Source: Prorocentrum cordatum (lineage: Eukaryota; Sar; Dinophyceae; Prorocentrales; Prorocentraceae). From it: a stretch of DNA of 64,000 bases. Below the pieces are notes generated by a model. That model searched no databases. It was not told the DNA's origin and saw nothing but the letters and a program-made list of their open reading frames with translations. The stretch is from contig CAUYUJ010000914.1 in NCBI GenBank assembly GCA_963575745.1, positions 173,290 through 237,289 of the forward strand. The letters run 5' to 3'. Of this stretch, positions 6,735 through 61,854 are shown piece by piece. The translations under genes and the position numbers were made by a program. Numbering within the stretch: position 1 is the stretch's first letter; each line of letters opens with the position of its first letter.

Positions 6735-6756
6735 CTTGAGCCAGAGGGGCTACGGA
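6735..6756 (-). other. Relict dinoflagellate spliced-leader sequence
   Basis: The minus strand reads TCCGTAGCC, three changed bases within the next four, then TGGCTCAAG: 19 of 22 positions match the dinoflagellate SL. No GT donor or Sm-like site follows, so it is not an SL RNA gene; it resembles the relict SL of a gene reinserted from a trans-spliced mRNA. A weaker echo (TGGTTCAAGCCATC) occurs on the minus strand near 6485-6500. It lies upstream of the minus-strand coding region 1-6562. Confidence 0.55.
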
Positions 6757-20433: not shown

Positions 20434-20982
20434 AGCAACCGCAACCTCAACAGCAAGCGGTTGCATTTGAGACGGGATTTATTCCTCACCTTACGCTCGC
20501 ACTCCAGTGCCGGGTCAGAAGAACGACACGCTCAGGGAGCTCAGGAGAGTGTTCTCCTAAGCAGTGGCGGGAAATCGCCCGCGCACCGACTCCGTGACCT
20601 TTGTGTTGTCGTGCATGGCTGAATGGCGTTAGACACGGCCTAGCAAGGCCTTGCCCCGGAGCCCGAAAACGGGCAGGAAGCGCAATTATGTTTACACCCC
20701 GTGCTTCGACTAGGGGCCGCCAGCGGTCCGCGACAGCCAGTTCCCCCGTTTTGGGGGGATGCCAGCCCGTCGGCTTTCGATGGGCTCTGACCTACAAGCA
20801 ACCGCAACCTCAACAGCAAGCGGTTGCATTTGAGACGGGATTTATTCCTCACCTCACGCTCGCACTCCAGTGCCGGGTCAGAAGAACGACACGCTCAGGG
20901 AGCTCAGGAGAGTGTTCTCCTAAGCAGTGGCGGGAAATCGCCCGCGCACCGACTCCGTGACATTTGTGTTGTCGTGCATGGC
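20434..20982. repeat. 186-bp direct repeat, two copies 363 bp apart
   Basis: 20434-20619 and 20797-20982 are near-identical (differences seen at CACCTTACG/CACCTCACG and GTGACC/GTGACA). The 177 bases between them have no coding. They may be two units of a ~363-bp tandem repeat or the ends of a small element. Neither copy has a convincing gene. Confidence 0.8.
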
Positions 20983-26473: not shown

Positions 26474-27400
26474 ATGACGAACCTCGCAGCAGCACTGACA
26501 TTCCTGGAGTGCTTCCCTGAAGCCGCTGCATGGCACTTCACAGTCCTGGACAAGCAGAAGCATTGCATCACGAACACCCCCGCAATGGCCACTAACAAGC
26601 TGCGCGCTGCGTTGAAGACCTTCCTGGGCACGCACAATGTGCATGTGTTCGTGAGGCCGTTGCTGGGCAACCTTGTCTTCCTTGATTTGGACGACTTCAC
26701 GACCCATAACAAGGACCTCACGGAGGTGCTGAGTCTGAAGCCACGGGCCCTCGTTCGCACAAGCCCCAACAACTACCAAGCATGGCTGGTCATTCCAGAG
26801 TCGCTGGCATCCAGCCAAGCACTGTGGGCTGCTCGAGCCATGACCGCCCACTTCAAGGGGGACGACCGCTCGCTGAAGGCAACCCAGCAGGGGCGTGTGC
26901 CAGGCTCCATGAATGTGAAGGCGGGCAAGGGGACAGTGACAGAGCTGGTCCACAATACGCCGGGGGCGACCTTGAACGAGGCGGCCTTCTTCAAGATGGT
27001 GCTCAAGCAGACGGTCCACATTCAGGGTGCCACGGTCGCCTCTGCGTCTGCTTCCATCGAGTAGAAGGCCGCGGCGGACCGGTCAGGCCAGGATTGGAAG
27101 CTCTGCTGCCAATTCTTCGAAGACCCTGCCGGTTACTCGTTCCAGATGGGGCTGCAAGAGTTGCCTCCGAAGATGACGAAGGCCCACGCGAGGCCTGACT
27201 CGTATGCCAGCCGGACGATCAAGAAAGCATTCCAAAAGGTCCGCGGGCATGCCGCCATTGCGGCGGACCCAGCCGCCTCCTCCTCCAAGCCCGCAGCCGC
27301 GGTCAGCCAGAAGGTCGCCCAACTGCCTGCCAACGCGGCTGAGAGCCAGCAGGTGCCGTCCCAGGGCGCCGCCCCTAAAGCGCCTCAACAGCCCGCGTCA
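26474..27400 (+). pseudogene. RepB-like (archaeo-eukaryotic) primase domain
   Basis: The ATG at 26474 (MTNLAAALTFLECFPEAAAWHF) opens a domain with the hallmarks of RepB-type primases: a metal-binding DxD in NLVFLDLDDF, then RTSPNNYQAWL (the second motif, with Gln where many family members have His), then GRVPGSMNVKAG (the late R-x2-G-x2-N-x-K box). A single in-frame TAG (27062-27064) interrupts it. Coding continues in register with DWKLCCQFFEDP and SYASRTIKKAFQKVRG, which matches the usual helical C-terminal part of such primases, and then a Pro/Ala/Gln linker. Such primases start DNA strands during replication of plasmids, viruses and some transposons. Presence in a eukaryotic element beside an integrase suggests a replicating mobile element. 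Confidence 0.65.
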
Positions 27401-28511
27401 TCTGGCGCCAGGCGATGGCGGCAACCCACCTCAGGGCGACCACGCGCCGCCCCAGGGCGCCGCCCCGGAGGCGTCTCAACAGCCAGCGTCGTCTGGGGCC
27501 GTCCAGGCGCCAGGCGAAGGCGGCCACGCGGCAGCGCCTGGGCAGTTCGTGTGCGTCGGGGACATCCAGGCGATGATCGACGTCGCCTTGCAAGCTCGCC
27601 TTCCGCAGAAATCCACCCCCTGCCACAGGTCATGCTCATTGTGCCATAAGCAATTCCCCAAGGATGGCTTCTACGGCACCCAGTGGGCTGCTGACGACGC
27701 CGACCGCGCCTGCAAGGTTTGCAAGCCCCTGGACGAGGCGCAGCTGCGCCGTCTGAAGACAGAGTGGACGTGTAAGCAGTGTGGCTCCACGAAGGCGAGG
27801 GACATGTTCACGCCCACCCAGAGACGCGCGGAGGAAAGCGCTAAGTGCATGGCATGCACGCACGGAAACGCCGTGGCGAACACGGTCGCCTTCCACGTCT
27901 GCTGCTCCTGCAAGCGCGAGAAGCACGCCGGCCAGTTCACGCCCGCCCAGCGGACCAACCCGAAGGACAACCGGAAGTGCAAGGATTGCTGCGCCGCCGC
28001 GCTGAAGAAGTCCCAGCAGAAGGGCAAGGACAACGTGGTTGACCACAACGCGGGCTGGAAGAGGAACCTGGACGCCGAGCTCCCCACGTGGGAGCGCAAG
28101 ACGAAGGATGAGGCCATGCGGTGGATCATGCAGGCTGACGAGACGGCGTTGCCCTCCGAGTGCCTGCAGTCCTACCAGGCCTGCATCGCCCTGCGGGGCC
28201 GGCAAGAATGGTGGCTCAGCGACCCTGGCCAGTCCAAGTCGGAGTTCACGGCCGCCGAGAAGCTCAAGCACCTCGACGCTGCTCACACTGACTTGAGCCA
28301 CCTGCGCGGCCGCGACGGCATCGTCGGCGTCCTCAAGGAGGAGCTCGGAGACAGAGTCTGGCCTCACCTCGTGCACGACGCTACATTCTTCGTCCTGCGT
28401 TGCGAGGACCTACGAGGAAGAGGAGGAGGAGGAGGAGGAAGAGCAGCGCAAGCAGCAGCAGCAGCACGAGCAGCAGGAGCAGGAGGAGGTGGACGGCGAT
28501 CACAACGGTGA
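27400..28511 (+). pseudogene. Linker with three Cys4 zinc modules
   Basis: After a one-base shift near 27407 (the repeat QGAAPxxxQQPASSGA appears once in each frame) the frame carries three tandem zinc modules of the form C-x2-C...F...R-x-C-x2-C: CSLC...CKVC, CKQC...CMAC and CCSC...CKDC, at about 27630-28000. A helical segment with several Trp follows (WERKTKDEAMRWIMQ). The modules probably bind nucleic acid or protein; the family is not identified. The frame then runs into a GGA array (28412-28650) where another frame gives an acidic Glu/Gln-rich linker. Confidence 0.55.
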
Positions 28512-34419: not shown

Positions 34420-34663
34420 AGGCCTCCTGGATCCTAGATGGGGTCCGAGAAAATGGGGTCCAAGGTTCGCGACGTATCGCCAATGCAGCATGCATCGTCG
34501 ATGCATCGGCGATGCATCGGCGATGCATCGGCGATACATCGGCGACGCATCCGCGACGTCGGCGTGGGGAAAATCGGGCTCCACATCGAGCCCTCTCGTC
34601 GATGCATCGGCGATGCGGCGCGATCCTCCGACCCCATCTACTCGGACCCCATCAAGGAGGCCT
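34420..34663. mobile_element. MITE-like element with terminal inverted repeats
   Basis: The left end (34420-34461) and the reverse complement of the right end (34630-34663) share AGGCCTCCT, GATGGGGTCCGAG and ATGGGGTC, with a short extra piece in the left arm. The interior (34490-34551) holds 11-bp tandem units CGGCGATGCAT. The element is about 244 bp and non-coding. Confidence 0.65.
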
Positions 34664-48733: not shown

Positions 48734-49035
48734 GAGAGGGAGAGTTTGGGGGGGAAGGGGAAGGAGGGGGAGGGAAGGCAGGAGGAGGGATGGAGGGGAG
48801 GCAGAAGAGGGATTCAGGGGGAGAAGGGGGGGGGGGCATGGAGGACGATGGGGGAGGGGGCTGAGGAGGACGGCTCGTGGCTCGGGGAAGGGGCGGGAGC
48901 ACGAGCGGCAATGGAGGAGCAACGCACGGAGCAGGATGGAGGGGAAGAGCAGCTGGCAGCGGGAGTGGGGGGGGGGGGGAATTACTGAAAAGGAAATTGA
49001 TTAGTGGCGCTCACAGAGGGGGTAAGGGGAAGGTG

Positions 49036-49143
49036 GGAAGGCTTCTTAGAGGCACCCCTGCTTCTTAGAAGGCGCCCGCCTTCCATCTGTAGACGGCAAG
49101 GCCTGCGCCTTCCAAGAAGCAGCCTCGTTCTAAGAAGCCTTCC
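49036..49143. repeat. Nested foldback element
   Basis: Outer perfect 15-bp arms GGAAGGCTTCTTAGA / TCTAAGAAGCCTTCC (49036-49050, 49129-49143) and inner 16-bp arms GCTTCTTAGAAGGCGC / GCGCCTTCCAAGAAGC (49060-49075, 49105-49120, one mismatch). Non-coding. Confidence 0.8.
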
Positions 49144-49261
49144 CTCCTCCCCCTCTGCGCATGGCCGACTGGAGCAGGAGGGAGAGAAGCAGAGCTGTCG
49201 TTGCGTTGCCGCTGTTGGGGAACCGGCGGGCTGTCTCAAAGAAAGATAATCTCGGTGATCT

Positions 49262-50870: not shown

Positions 50871-53800
50871 CTAATTCAGAGGTGTCGTCATGTCGTTGAC
50901 CTGATCTGGCGCCGCAGGGGCGTTCCAGGAATGGACGCGCTCCCGCAGGATCGGCGCGTAGACCGAGAGGGCGCGGCGGCCCTCGAGCGCGCCCCCCCTC
51001 GCGCCTCTGCGGCAGGCCACCACGCCCAGGGCCACGGCGCCCGCAACCATCAGCGCCGAGGCGAGCACGAGGGGCGACGTCATCGGCTCGGCGGCCCGCC
51101 GCAGAGGCACGGCGAACTTGGCCTCGGTGGCCTCCTCCTCCTCCTCCTCCTCCTCCTCCTCCTCCTCCTCCTCCTCCTCCTCCCCCTCCCCCACCTCCTC
51201 CTCCTCCTCCCCCTCCTCCCCCACCTCCTCCTCCTCCTCCTCCTCCTCCGCCTCCTCCTCCTCCTCCTCCTCCTCCTCCTCCTCCTCCTCCACCGCAGAA
51301 CTTGGCCTCGGTGGCGGGGCAGCCCACGTTCTCGGCCCTGCAGCAGTAGTCCTTCTGCCCCGCGCTCCAGTCCGAGGTGTCCACGGCGGCTGGGCCCTTG
51401 GACGCCCACTCTGGGCACCACAGGAGCTCGTTCGTGCAGCACCACTCCTTCTTGTCGTCGGTCCAGCCCCTGGCCCAATCCCACAGCCCTTCGTGGCAGT
51501 CGTAGTCCGCCGCGCCGTCGGCGGTCTTCGGGGGCTTGCCCTTGCAGCTGTATGGCGGCGAGGTCGTCGACGCCTCCGCTGGGCTGGCGGAGGAACTCGA
51601 AGTCGCGGACGAGCTGGAAGACGCGCCCTTGGAGGTCGATGGCACGCCTGGCGGACCCGTGAAAGTGTCCTCGTCCCAGCTGGATGTGGTGCTCGACGGC
51701 TTCTGGCTGCTCGGCGACTTCTCGGAGCTCGCGCAAGGGAAGCCCTTCGTCTTGCAGCAAAAAGCTTTCTTTTTCTCGGACCAACCCGTCAACCACATGC
51801 CGATGCCCGCCTGGCAGTCGAAGTCCTCGTCCTCGTCCTCGTCCTCCTTCTCGGCTTCCCCCCCGTCGCAGCCGCGACCTTGCGAGTTGCAACAATACTT
51901 CTTCTTCGCGTCGGGCCACCCCATCCTCCAATTGTCGTAGCCGTCCTTGCAGTCGTACTGCTGCGTGGTCGTCTCCACTACATCCGCGTCGTCGCCGCAG
52001 CCCAGACCTTCGGCCTTGCAACACCACTCCTTCTTCTTTGTGGACCAACCCAGCTTCCAGTTGTCGTAGCCGGCCTGGCAATTGTATGTTTCAGACGTGG
52101 TGGTCCCGTCCACGCAGCCGCGGTTCACCGTCGTGCAACAATATTCCTTCTTGTCGTTGGACCAGCCGGCCACCCAGTTCTTGAAGCCGGCATCGCAGTT
52201 GTACATCATCGTGGTAGTCGTGCTCTTCTTGACCACCTGTGTGGTGGTGCTGATGCTGGTGCTGCGACGCGACGTCGTGTTCTCGGACTCGTCGCATCCC
52301 TTGCCCTTGTTGTCGCAGCACCACTTCTTTTTGGAGTCCGACCAACCCTGCTTCCAGTTGTCCAGGCCATCCTTGCAGTCGAACTTGTCACTGGTCGCCG
52401 CCTTCTCAGGTGGCGGTGGCGGTGGCGGAGGTGGAGGCGGTGGCGCCGGCGTCGATGTCGGAGGTGTCGATCCGTCCAAGATGTGGTCCCAGCCTGCGGG
52501 GCACTCCAGGCCCTGCTCCCGGAACTGCACGCAGCAGTACGCCTTCTTGGCGTCGCCCCAGCCACTGTAGTGCCCGCCCCTGCAGTCCATGGGGTCGTCG
52601 CCCAGCGCGGTTGTCGTCGTTGTGGCCACGCGCGTCGTCTTCGTGCGCTTCGGGCAGCCAATGTCCTTATACATGCAGCAGAACTTGCGCGTGTCGGTGG
52701 GCCACTCCTCGTCCGCGTCCCACTGCGTGCAGCACGCACTCTTCTTCTCAATCGACCAATCGTTTTGCCAGTTGGCCAACCCCACCTTGCAGCTGTCCGA
52801 GGCCGAGCCCGGCTCCTGCGCCTCGTCGAGGGAGCAGCCCTTCTGCCTGTGCTTGCAGCACCACTTCACCTTCGTGTCGGGGTGCAAGATGGCTTCGTAA
52901 GTGAAGCCGGCGTCGCAATTGTACGGGTCGCCCGGAGCGGCCGTCTTGTTGTTCCCCGGGCAGACGCCCTTCACGTCGCAGCACCAGTGAACCTTCTCCA
53001 CCGGCCAGGAGATCTCCCAGCTCTTCAGCCCGTTTTCGCAATTGTACTGGTCCTCTGGGGTGGTCGAGCCGAAAGGCAAGCACCCCTTGCCCTCGTGCTC
53101 GCAGCAGTAGGCGACCCTCTCGTCTGGGTGCGTCCTTTCCCAGAGGCTGAAGCTTCCAGAGCAGTCGATGCCATCCTCACCAGTGGTGGCCTCGTCTGCG
53201 GGCGCGCACGCTTTTCCTTTGAAGCGGCAGCACCAGTGGACCTTGTCCTTGTCCCACTTCTTGTGCCAGTGCTTGTACCCATCGTTGCAATCGAAGGGCT
53301 CGTCCGCGCCCGAGGACTTCGCGTCCGACGCGCAGCCCTTGTTCTCGTGCTCGCAGCACCAGTTCTTTTTGGCGTCGTCCCACCACTGCTTCCACTTGGA
53401 GTAGCCGGTATCGCAATTGTACGGCTGATCCGGCTTGGTGGTCGTGACCCGCTGCTCCGCGTTGCTCGAACCCACGCAGCCGCGCTGCTCATGGTAGCAA
53501 CACCAATCCTTCTTGTGCTCTGTCCACTCGAAGGCGGGCCCGTCGCGGCAGTCGTAGTGGCCCTTGGGCGTGGGTCCCGACGGCGCCGGGGCGGGCCACG
53601 CCCAGGGCCAGAGCCACCCCAGCTGGGAGGGCGGCGCCGGAGACGGCGTCTTGTCCCGCGCCGTGGGTGGCTCCGTGGTTGGAGGCGCGGGGGGCCCGTC
53701 GCAGCCCAGACCTTCTGTCTCGCAGCAGTAGGTCGTCTTCGATAGGTTCCACGTCGAGGGCGTCCCCGAGTCGCAGTCGTGCGTTTCAGGGCATCCGCGC

Positions 53801-56075
53801 TTGTAGTTGGCGCAACACCAATCCTTCTTGTCGTCCGACCACCCGGTCTGCCAGCTCGGAAAGCCCGCCTCGCAGTCGTGCGGGAGCGACTTGGCGTCTG
53901 CGTTGTCCTCTTTGTCCTCGCCGTCTGGGCAAGCGAGGTCATACTTGCAGCAGTAGTACCTGGTGTCCTCGGGCCAGTTGTCCGCCTTTTTGAAGCGCTG
54001 GCAGCAGTACTCCTTCTTCGGTACCGTCCACACGTTCTGCCAATTCTCGATGTCTGCCTCGCAGTCCAGGCCTGGCTCCTCGGACGGAGGGGTCGAAGAG
54101 GCGCCCACGTCGCACCCGCGCCCGACGAGCTGGCAGCAGTGATCGTCCGCGCCAGCGGGCCAGACGGACGTCCGCTCCCAGCGCTCACAGCACCACCCCT
54201 GCTTTGCATCACTCCAGGTCTTCTCCCAATTCCGCAGGCCGTCCTCACAGTTGTAGGGCGTGTCCGGCCTGCGACTGGTGACGACCTCCGAGTCGCTGCA
54301 CCCTTTGTTCTCGTTGTCGCAGCACCACGTCTTCTTCGACTCCGACCAGCCCGTCGTCCAGGTGACGAACCCGGCTTCGCAATCGAAAGCGGGCGACGAC
54401 GACAGGCCGTTCAGACCTCGGGGAGACGTAAGACTCGGGTACGGGGGACTCGGGTTGGCCTGACGGGGGCCATCATGAAAATGACGATGCCCAATCTGGA
54501 ATCTGACGCGAGCTCCCGCTGCAGACATCCCACGAACGCCAGACCGTCCAAATCCGGGGCGCGCCCGTCAAAAAAACGACGGTAAACCCGAGCTCCGGCT
54601 TACTCGGGGGCGCGCAAACGTGGATTAGCGATCCATGGATTTGGCGCGCGGTCGCCAAATCCATGGATCGGGAAGGTGACCTCCACAAAACGCGGCCAAT
54701 GCCGCCTCGTTCGGCGGCGGGAATCCGCGATTTCCCATGGAAACGGGACCCGTCGCTAATCCACGCCCCCTTGATCCATGTTTGCGATTGCCTGGCTTCC
54801 TCGAGCCTTACGTTTCCCCGAAGACCGCCCACGAAGTCGCCGACGGCGTCCTCCGCCTCGGGCACGGACGCGAACGCGTCAAGCCCGTCTGGGCCGGAGC
54901 AGCCGACGCCCCAGTGCAGGCAGCACCACGCCATCTTCGACGCAGGCCAGGCCGTCCGCCAGTCCTCCGCGCCGGCCTGTCATTATAGCTCGGGCGTGTC
55001 CCCCCACAGGCAGCCTTGGACGAGAAAACAAAGGTACCCCGAAACATATTCTAACAATATTCAAACAGAATCGAGAAATCGTCCCCGGACTGTGTTTTGA
55101 CTATTGTTGAATCTCCCCCCCTGTAGAGGGACACGCCCGACTTAAGCCTGGCAGTCAAAGGCGAAGTAGCTCTTCTTGCAGCCCTGCTTGTGCGTCCTGC
55201 AGCAGAAGTGCCGCTTGAAGGGGCCCCACTCCTCCATGATCGAATCACCGTTGGACAGGTCGCATGAGAACTTTTTCTCCACGTCCGAGTGGTTCTTCCA
55301 GTCCTTGATGTTGTCCAAGGTCTGCTCGAGCTTCATGATCCACGGGTACTTCTTCAGAATCTTGCTGTTACTCCTGACCATCTCGAGCAGCTCGTCCTTT
55401 CCTTCGTCCGCCGTCAGCGTTCCGTCGGACTTCTCGGAAAAGGCCTCCCCGGGGAGCGGGAGCGCCCCGGCGTCTTCGGCGGCCGCCTTGGAAGCCGTGG
55501 TCGACGGGGCGAACGTCATCACGGGGGCGCCGCCTGATTGATTCTCACGGTCGTCCTCCCCTGACTGATTCTCCTGGCCGCCCTCGTTGAGCAGGGACCG
55601 ACCGGCCCGGCAATCCTATAGGCCTACCACGAAATGTTCCCAGAACCCAGAACTTCTGTTGATAACAGAACAGAATCAATGATCTTGGAATATGAGCCCG
55701 ATGTGATGAAACAAAACAGTCTGAGCCAGAAATGCCCCAATAACATTTCGTGCATACCACACAAGGTTCTTAGAACATGTTTTGGCAGGCCGATACGAAA
55801 ACCAGAACGCTACGTCGCTGCTTGACCTCGCCGTCGGCGCCCCGGCGCGGGGGCGCCAGCACGTCTCCAGGGCAGCCGATCTGCGCGCTGATGCAGCACA
55901 GGTCCCTCTCCTGCGCCGTCCACATCATGGGGTCGCCGTCCTGGCAGTTGACGTGTGCTTGCGCTCTCGCCACCAGCTGCAAGAGGACGGGCACGGCCGC
56001 GGCATACGAGCCGCGCATCTGGCCAAGCGTCCGACGCCCAGAGCCGCTGCGACGGCTGCGGCCAGCATGGGGCAT
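50871..56075 (-). CDS. Secreted/type I membrane protein with ~23 Cys-Cys repeats
   Basis: Five exons: 56075-55797, 55615-55148, 54976-54826, 54416-51307 and 51122-50871 (1,419 residues). The first ATG after the spliced-leader relict is 56075; Met 56018 gives a cleaner signal peptide (MRGSYAAAVPVLLQLVARAQA). The body is about 23 units of the pattern D-C-x-(A/D)-G...W...W...K-x2-(W/Y)-C-C-x5-GC, spaced by Ser/Thr/Pro/Asp-rich linkers. A membrane helix (SPLVLASALMVAGAVALGVV) and a basic tail (CRRGARGG) follow. This predicts a cell-surface protein with a disulfide-rich ectodomain; ligand unknown. I do not recognise a named family. Each splice junction restores frame and, at introns 1 and 2, completes the FDC(R/Q)AG repeat start. 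No stop or frameshift breaks the exons. Confidence 0.8.
51123..51306 (-). other. Intron 4: GGA array between 17-bp direct repeats
   Basis: The minus strand reads GCCACCGAG|GCCAAGTT at the 5' border and again at the 3' border (plus-strand copies 51299-51315 and 51115-51131). Splicing GAG|GC...GAG|GC removes 184 bases with GC-AG ends and brings the ectodomain into frame with the membrane helix; without it the frame runs into poly-Gly. The interior is almost all GGA. Confidence 0.75.
54417..54825 (-). other. Intron 3: terminal inverted repeats and nested palindrome
   Basis: Spliced GGCG|GTCTTCGG...CCCCGAG|GTCTG; 409 bases, phase 1. The ends are inverted repeats: CGGGGAAACGTAAGGCTCG on one side and CGGGGAGACGTAAGACTCG on the complement of the other. 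GGTCT occurs at both insertion borders like a target-site duplication. Inside, 54631-54668 is a perfect 16-bp palindrome arm pair (ATCCATGGATTTGGCG), itself within a wider inverted repeat (TGGATTAGCG near 54621 and its complement near 54755). Confidence 0.7.
54977..55147 (-). other. Intron 2: introner-like with 13-bp terminal inverted repeats
   Basis: 171 bases, TGCCAG|GC...ACAG|GCC, phase 0. Perfect inverted repeats TCGGGCGTGTCCC at 54990-55002 and 55128-55140 extend with mismatches to about 21 bases. Removing it joins FDCQ to AGAEDWRTAW, a normal repeat start. Confidence 0.8.
55616..55796 (-). other. Intron 1: introner-like with imperfect inverted repeats
   Basis: 181 bases, TTTTC|GTATCGGCC...GGCCTATAG|GATTGC, phase 0, GT-AG. 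The ends are inverted repeats that begin exactly at the splice borders: GTATCGGCCTGCC and, on the complement, CTATAGGCCTACC (18 of 24 matching when extended). Removal joins VLVF to DCRAG. Confidence 0.75.
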
Positions 56076-56115
56076 CACGGCACACCCGCGGCTGGAACCT
56101 GCAACCGCTAGGCTG

Positions 56116-56136
56116 CTTGAGCCACAATGACCACGG
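56116..56136 (-). other. Relict spliced-leader sequence upstream of the Cys-repeat gene
   Basis: The minus strand reads CCGTGGTCATTG, then TGGCTCAAG: 18 of 21 positions match the dinoflagellate SL. It lies 41 bases before the ATG at 56075, where a processed leader would sit in the mRNA. Confidence 0.6.
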
Positions 56137-60476: not shown

Positions 60477-60512
60477 GAGTTCGCAACAAGAGCAAGCGGG
60501 CCTAAGAGGTTC

Positions 60513-60531
60513 GAGCCAAAATGGCTACGGA
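60513..60531 (-). other. Relict spliced-leader sequence (19 exact bases)
   Basis: TCCGTAGCCATTTTGGCTC matches the SL exactly; the last three bases differ (GAA instead of AAG). The absence of GT after it argues against an SL RNA gene. Confidence 0.75.
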
Positions 60532-61832: not shown

Positions 61833-61854
61833 CTTGAGCCCAAACGGCTACGGA
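61833..61854 (-). other. Relict spliced-leader sequence (20 of 22 bases)
   Basis: TCCGTAGCC, one change, TTT, one change, then GGCTCAAG. It is followed by CCGCCTCGG, not a GT donor. Confidence 0.75.

Follow-up and report, generated by a model that had tools for sequence, protein, structure and literature searches.

A gene of Prorocentrum cordatum bearing the relict of a spliced leader (SL) has probably been retroposed and later split by three unrelated introners, I1 to I3, a fourth segment, I4, having arisen by duplication around a GGA repeat. Located on the minus strand, the gene spans 50871-56075 and has an SL-like sequence at 56116-56136; the window (the whole stretch of DNA analysed, 64,000 nucleotides) is a portion of contig C914 (636,746 bases). 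The assembly searched comprises 4,128,499,153 bases in 21,875 contigs, and GC content in the window is 0.565-0.645 per 4-kb bin. A preliminary description had proposed that retroposition and gain of mobile introns are both recorded at this locus. This is the best reading for I1 to I3, and it does not extend to I4, which is not introner-like.

Cutting out the four segments leaves a single frame of 1417 aa if I1 is taken as a 187-nt version, and an open frame of 1398 codons if I1 is redrawn to 244 nt as explained below. All exons are on the minus strand. Exon 1 (55827..56075) contains the start codon, a first Cys repeat (7.5 bits) and, by eye, a likely signal peptide. It is followed by exon 2 (55148..55582), exon 3 (54826..54976) and the 3.1-kb exon 4 (51307..54416), which is made of Cys/Trp-rich repeats. 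Exon 5 (50871..51122) encodes a hydrophobic, probably transmembrane segment (by eye), a short tail and the stop. Third-position GC lies at 0.86-0.94 in 5/5 exons when the redrawn borders are used. Frames were also scored with a codon table trained on exon 4, which is therefore positive by construction. Throughout, the assigned frame outscored the two other forward frames; its score was positive in exons 2, 3 and 4, and negative in exon 1 (-0.165) and exon 5 (-0.151). One reverse frame of exon 1 scored slightly above the assigned one (-0.123 vs -0.165), and the exon 5 frame is the one that holds the hydrophobic segment and the stop.

The repeats give a separate view of the I2 junction. A profile was built from 15 exon 4 repeats, leaving out the repeat that spans I2, and run on the spliced protein, where 26 matches exceeded zero bits. 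The Cys/Trp repeat lying over the I2 junction is whole only once spliced, scoring 30.6 bits over profile positions 1-29, versus 24.2 bits over positions 3-29 in the unspliced version. Among the 7989 scored candidates sharing most words with the protein, 5 were homologous at E ≤ 0.001, two of them from P. cordatum (25-28% identity), and none was a near-identical public protein; environmental sets also hold Cys/Trp-repeat relatives. Pfam and PDB searches with pieces of the protein found nothing, and the 223-kb genome sample described below contained no paralogue of the gene. From its predicted features, the product would be a secreted or membrane-anchored Cys/Trp-repeat protein.

The SL relict, CCGTGGTCATTGTGGCTCAAG (56116..56136, minus strand), has 3 mismatches in 21 and a (TCC)n tract in front. 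It is on the same strand as the gene, and 40 nt separate it from the first in-frame ATG (56075) and 97 nt from the second, which bears out the initial report of a relict 41 bases before the first ATG. When the window was searched with the 21 bases of the SL, allowing at most 3 mismatches, 4 sites were found, all on the minus strand, as compared to 0 in 100 shuffles. These 4 sites have 2-3 mismatches, and the window has none with 4, 5 or 6. In a further 200 kb of the contig, 3 sites had 0-1 mismatch, 2 had 4 mismatches and 3 had 6, indicating that chance or decayed sites set in there from 4 mismatches upwards. Judged on these counts, the relict at this gene is real, and chance is an unlikely explanation. 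DinoSL retrogenes are marked by an SL or its relict directly in front of the coding sequence, and this gene shows such a mark. The internal AG of the CCGTAG motif is gone from the relict, so that, past the (TCC)n tract, the first AG encountered is the one on which the relict itself ends. This would allow a new leader to join exactly at the end of the old one.

Genome-wide, 14,218 exact copies of the SL were counted (7201 + 7017), a density of about 3.4 per Mb, and the reversed control gave 0. Among 8 sampled copies, 6 stand behind a TCC-rich tract (by eye) and none is directly followed by GT. In an SL RNA gene, the SL sequence is followed by GT. At two loci (L004, L008), a truncated second SL lies directly behind the first, a sign of repeated recycling. 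Two other exact copies, both on contig C1 (L001, L007), have partly similar sequences behind them, ending in GGATACCGCTAGT, and perhaps belong to one recycled gene family. The remaining relicts of the window are all on the minus strand. The one at 61833-61853 (2 mismatches) has downstream a short ORF for a possible 66-aa protein with a hydrophobic segment (by eye), in which no intron is apparent. Downstream of those at 60510-60530 and 6735-6755 (2 and 3 mismatches, respectively) no clear gene was identified.

Terminal inverted repeats had been announced in three of the four introns, and they hold up in I1 (187-nt version), I2 and I3: for each of them, 0/2000 dinucleotide shuffles scored as high, and random segments of the window rarely did (5/1993 for I1, 1/1989 for I2, 4/1988 for I3). 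All three can fold end to end into a hairpin, with z-scores of -5.1 for I2, -7.4 for I3 and -5.4 for the 244-nt I1, none of the shuffles reaching the same stability; the inner 187 nt of I1 give -4.2. Each has stops in all three frames and a codon score that is not exon-like. Flanking direct repeats, initially credited to a single intron, are in fact present at all three: GGTCT directly at I3, an 8-mer with 7/8 identity at I2 that is backed by three relatives, and CGAGG at I1, weaker when taken alone.

I2 (54977..55147, minus strand) is a predicted GC-AG introner of 171 nt with the terminal inverted repeat TCGGGCGTGTCCCTCTACAGG (19/21) and borders CAG|GC...CAG|GC. The left copy of its duplication, TGCCAGGC (55146..55153), and the right copy, TGACAGGC (54975..54982), both on the minus strand, are 7/8 identical, with two extra bases on the right. 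Three relatives were found in 223 kb, two of them in one locus (L018) and one in another (L013), at 62-71% identity. Around these outside copies, the 8-bp duplications match at 7, 8 and 7 of 8 positions, with an identical offset in all three. Random pairs of 8-mers match at 7/8 or better in 1821/200,000 cases, and a free grid of offsets brings this to 630/5000, so that it is the shared offset that counts. A 48-nt match to I2 inside the window, at 20597-20644 (E 5e-4), runs into one end of a 186-bp direct repeat and was set aside. This repeat (20434-20619 and 20797-20982) is 98.9% identical between its copies and has no Rfam match.

I3 (54417..54825, minus strand) is a predicted GT-AG introner of 409 nt with the terminal inverted repeat TCGGGGARACGTAAGRCTCG (18/20). 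It is directly flanked by GGTCT on the left (54822..54826) and on the right (54413..54417), both on the minus strand, giving borders G|GTCT...GAG|GTCT; such a direct 5-base match at both borders occurred in 639/99,289 random pairs. Positions 40-220 of I3 are, judging from a match at L019, a nested or shared repeat (54606..54786, minus strand), whose free-standing relative is 77% identical over 184 columns. For the outer part of I3, no relative was found in the window plus 223 kb. A GTAAG donor lying 14 nt further into I3 would, by arithmetic, make an intron of 395 nt, and the frame would not be restored.

The borders of I1 had to be redrawn. In the preliminary description, I1 ran from 55796 to 55616 (181 nt). 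Its relative on contig C1 (L002, the same locus as L029), 78% identical by BLAST over positions 36-240 of the redrawn I1, aligns past both of these borders, by about 30 nt on the left and about 33 nt on the right, into the supposed exon, and a multiple alignment likewise passes the left one. The earlier borders thus lie inside the element and were abandoned. Redrawn, I1 (55583..55826, minus strand) would be a GT-AG fold-back element of 244 nt between copies of CGAGG (left, 55826..55830; right, 55582..55586; both minus strand), with an outermost inverted repeat of 9/12. The relative on C1 can be bounded by a duplication of its own, TTTCT (borders by eye). A 5-base match within 3 bases of both borders, the nearer comparison for I1, occurred in 8982/99,289 random pairs, i.e. 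about 9%, and it is therefore the alignment rather than the pair that carries the weight for this border. Assuming that the earlier pairs of numbers give the final exon base and the first base of the following exon, the other borders (I2, 55147-54977; I3, 54825-54417; I4, 51306-51123) were exact. By-eye intron borders within fold-back elements can thus be wrong. The claim that removing each intron restores the frame is sustained for I1 to I3, and the earlier inner GT-AG pair of I1 also keeps the frame, by arithmetic, at 181 nt.

Relatives of the elements were sought in a genome sample of 223,306 bases, 200 kb of which come from the same contig. Near full-length copies numbered 1 for I1 and 3 for I2. 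The idea that the intron sequences recur in the genome is upheld in this sample for these two, and for I3 through its inner 180 nt only. No convincing further copy of I1, I2 or I3 was seen within the window. Scaled up to the genome, this one small sample would give about 18,000 copies of I1, 55,000 of I2 and 18,000 of the repeat inside I3, all with very wide intervals. As a control for BLAST, run with the settings used for the introns, a query was counted if it had a match of at least 100 bp at E 1e-4: this happened for 0/300 shuffled introns, 1/100 exon pieces and 47/300 random 200-nt pieces of the window. Having a relative is therefore weak evidence by itself, and these rates indicate that the introns resemble the repetitive part of the genome, not the exons. 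Four copies outside the window were inspected, 3 of I2 and 1 of I1, and no coding signal was seen in the flanks of any of them, so that none provides a further example of an intron.

I4 (51123..51306, minus strand) is of another kind: 184 nt made of an expanded (GGA)n repeat and bordered on either side by a copy of the 18-bp exon sequence GCCACCGAGGCCAAGTTC (51298..51315 and 51114..51131, minus strand). It has no terminal inverted repeat (74/2000 shuffles score as high) and was rejected as an introner, so that the initial count of four introns with insertion hallmarks stands for three. Its position between exon copies makes restoration of the frame automatic, which deprives this argument of any value for splicing. 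We lean slightly, and with odds that we put a little above even, towards an exonic expansion lying one base out of frame by assembly error or real mutation, over a GC-AG intron born by duplication. Copy 1 reads ..AAGTTC-T-GCGGTG and copy 2 ..AAGTTC-GCCGTG, i.e. 184 = 183 + 1 nt, 183 nt being 61 codons. In the frame of exon 4, departures from GGA fall at the third codon position in 7/7 cases, as if the repeat coded glycine; for 27 GGA runs elsewhere in the window the figure is 33/77. The number of independent events behind these departures may be small. An exon-like codon score (0.509) was obtained for one frame of I4, and the exon 4 frame read straight through stays open to 50620 (a 1302-aa ORF). 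This straight reading nevertheless drops the hydrophobic C-terminus and the stop of exon 5. The duplicated exon piece moreover has GAG|GC at both ends, the AG|G(T/C) arrangement expected of intron gain by tandem duplication, which fits GC-AG splicing, GC being the commonest donor type reported in P. cordatum (PMC10666404).

We infer the following history. A trans-spliced mRNA would have returned to the genome by reverse transcription, the SL relict being what is left of its leader. Near the 5' end, three non-autonomous DNA transposons unrelated to one another (introners of the fold-back, MITE-like type) would then have inserted, each duplicating a few exon bases: CGAGG, an 8-mer ending in CAGGC, and GGTCT. 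The duplicates, alone or with the terminal bases of the element, would provide both splice sites (GT or GC as donor, AG as acceptor), and splicing of the element plus one duplicate would exactly restore the original coding sequence. At I4, an exon piece with AGGC would have been duplicated around a growing GGA repeat, the result being spliced as GC-AG, or else coding or frameshifted.

Only if the copied mRNA was already spliced are I1 to I3 younger than the relict. The template may instead have been an SL-carrying transcript whose cis-splicing was incomplete, in which case the introners were present before retroposition and came along with the copy. Some dinoflagellate retrogenes have been interpreted as having retained introns (PMC6050394), and retention would suit the grouping of I1 to I3 within the first 20% of the coding sequence (54417-55826; P 0.008 if uniform), with none in the 3.1-kb exon. 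This grouping runs against the history that we favour, as simple random insertion after retroposition predicts none; it may be explained by 5'-biased insertion, by rewriting of the repeat-rich 3' part, or by selection. Divergences give no order, those of the relict (3/21) and of the introner relatives (about 22-38%) being too rough for that purpose. The introns of the gene are however few and short relative to the means given for P. cordatum, 9.8 introns per gene of 4709 nt each with exons of 240 nt (PMC10666404). A 4.2-kb coding sequence at this mean exon length should hold many more introns, mostly long, and a gene that carried its introns along should retain some ordinary ones, whereas I1 to I3 all bear insertion marks. 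We consider this origin unlikely, and keep gain after copying as the preferred reading.

The insertions might also be unspliced and the locus a broken gene or pseudogene, as the stops in I1 to I3, the presence of element copies in DNA without coding signal and the lack of a near-identical protein among the 7989 scored candidates would suggest. Against this, 1398 codons are open after removal of the four segments, third-position GC is uniformly high in the exons, and all three insertion sites offer GT or GC plus AG at the duplications, both donors being usual in P. cordatum (PMC10666404), so that we hold a dead locus to be quite improbable. Finally, as SL copies abound in this genome, the presence of one next to a gene could be fortuitous, and the relict would then be part of a separate upstream insertion, uninformative on this gene. 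The low density of exact copies given above speaks against such a coincidence, as do the relict's strand and its place just before the first in-frame ATG; relicts of retrogenes have been described at -50 to -100 (PMC6050394). We regard an unrelated relict as very improbable.

Introners have been described among dinoflagellates in Symbiodinium microadriaticum (PMC9860276), P. cordatum (PMC10666404) and Polarella (reviewed in PMC11453091). In Symbiodinium they have inverted repeats and take their donor from the duplication (PMC9860276); in P. cordatum, 51.4% of donors are GC and introns are enriched in introners (PMC10666404). The elements described here are similarly short, with terminal inverted repeats, short flanking duplications that would supply the donor, and several families in one genome. 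They differ by duplications of 5 and 8 bp, versus 4 bp in S. microadriaticum (PMC9860276), and by a predicted acceptor AG lying partly or wholly inside the duplication, unlike in the dinoflagellate introners compared. The introner elements of Amoebophrya (PMC7789003) likewise have inverted repeats close to both ends, short direct repeats that straddle the exon borders, and a hairpin; their borders are highly variable, whereas those here are GT/GC-AG. Putative splicing of I4 would recall the tandem-duplication gain modelled by Rogers (PMC4974935), in which a duplicated exon piece with AGG provides both splice sites; I4 has AGGC rather than AGGT, and its middle is an expanded GGA repeat.

DinoSL-tagged retrogenes, some of them with introns, have been reported as well (PMC6050394, PMC12014239), and resemble this gene by a relict just upstream of the start codon and by the presence of introns. 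Unlike in those, the introns here bear insertion marks, a point in favour of gain after the copying step rather than of retention. Among the titles and opening lines of abstracts listed, no work on introner gain in SL-tagged retrogenes was found; PMC10666404 and PMC11453091 treat both introners and SL retrogenes, and the portions of their text that were available contained no link between the two. Introners and SL-tagged retrogenes are thus each known in dinoflagellates, and what is added here is their occurrence at one locus, together with three apparently distinct elements, two of which (I1 and I2) have candidate borders backed by relatives.

Intron gain is usually inferred by comparison across species, and a tagged retroposed gene gives a starting point inside one genome. 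If the proposed order is correct, the SL-tagged retrogenes of dinoflagellates would permit direct measurement of how fast, where and by which families introns are gained. From this locus one can also see a way in which splice sites may be supplied by flanking duplications. It is quite possible, as a generalisation that we put forward tentatively, that SL relicts mark a zero point, thousands of SL-tagged retrogenes of P. cordatum having begun intronless and been re-colonised by many unrelated introner families; here, there would be three gains from three families.

A scan of the window for fold-back structures returned 32 inverted repeats, several of low complexity, where each of five shuffles gave between 6 and 11; it listed I2, missed I1 and the outer repeats of I3, and is given no weight as evidence here. 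Long imperfect inverted repeats at 34432-34658 and 49025-49154 (arms of 56 and 26 nt) are possible fold-back elements outside the gene. Elsewhere in the window, an ORF at 27204-28508 on the plus strand matches the Pfam Stc1 family (E 2.7e-6) and has two relatives in P. cordatum, one with 65% identity over 73% of the query and the other with 94% over 23%.
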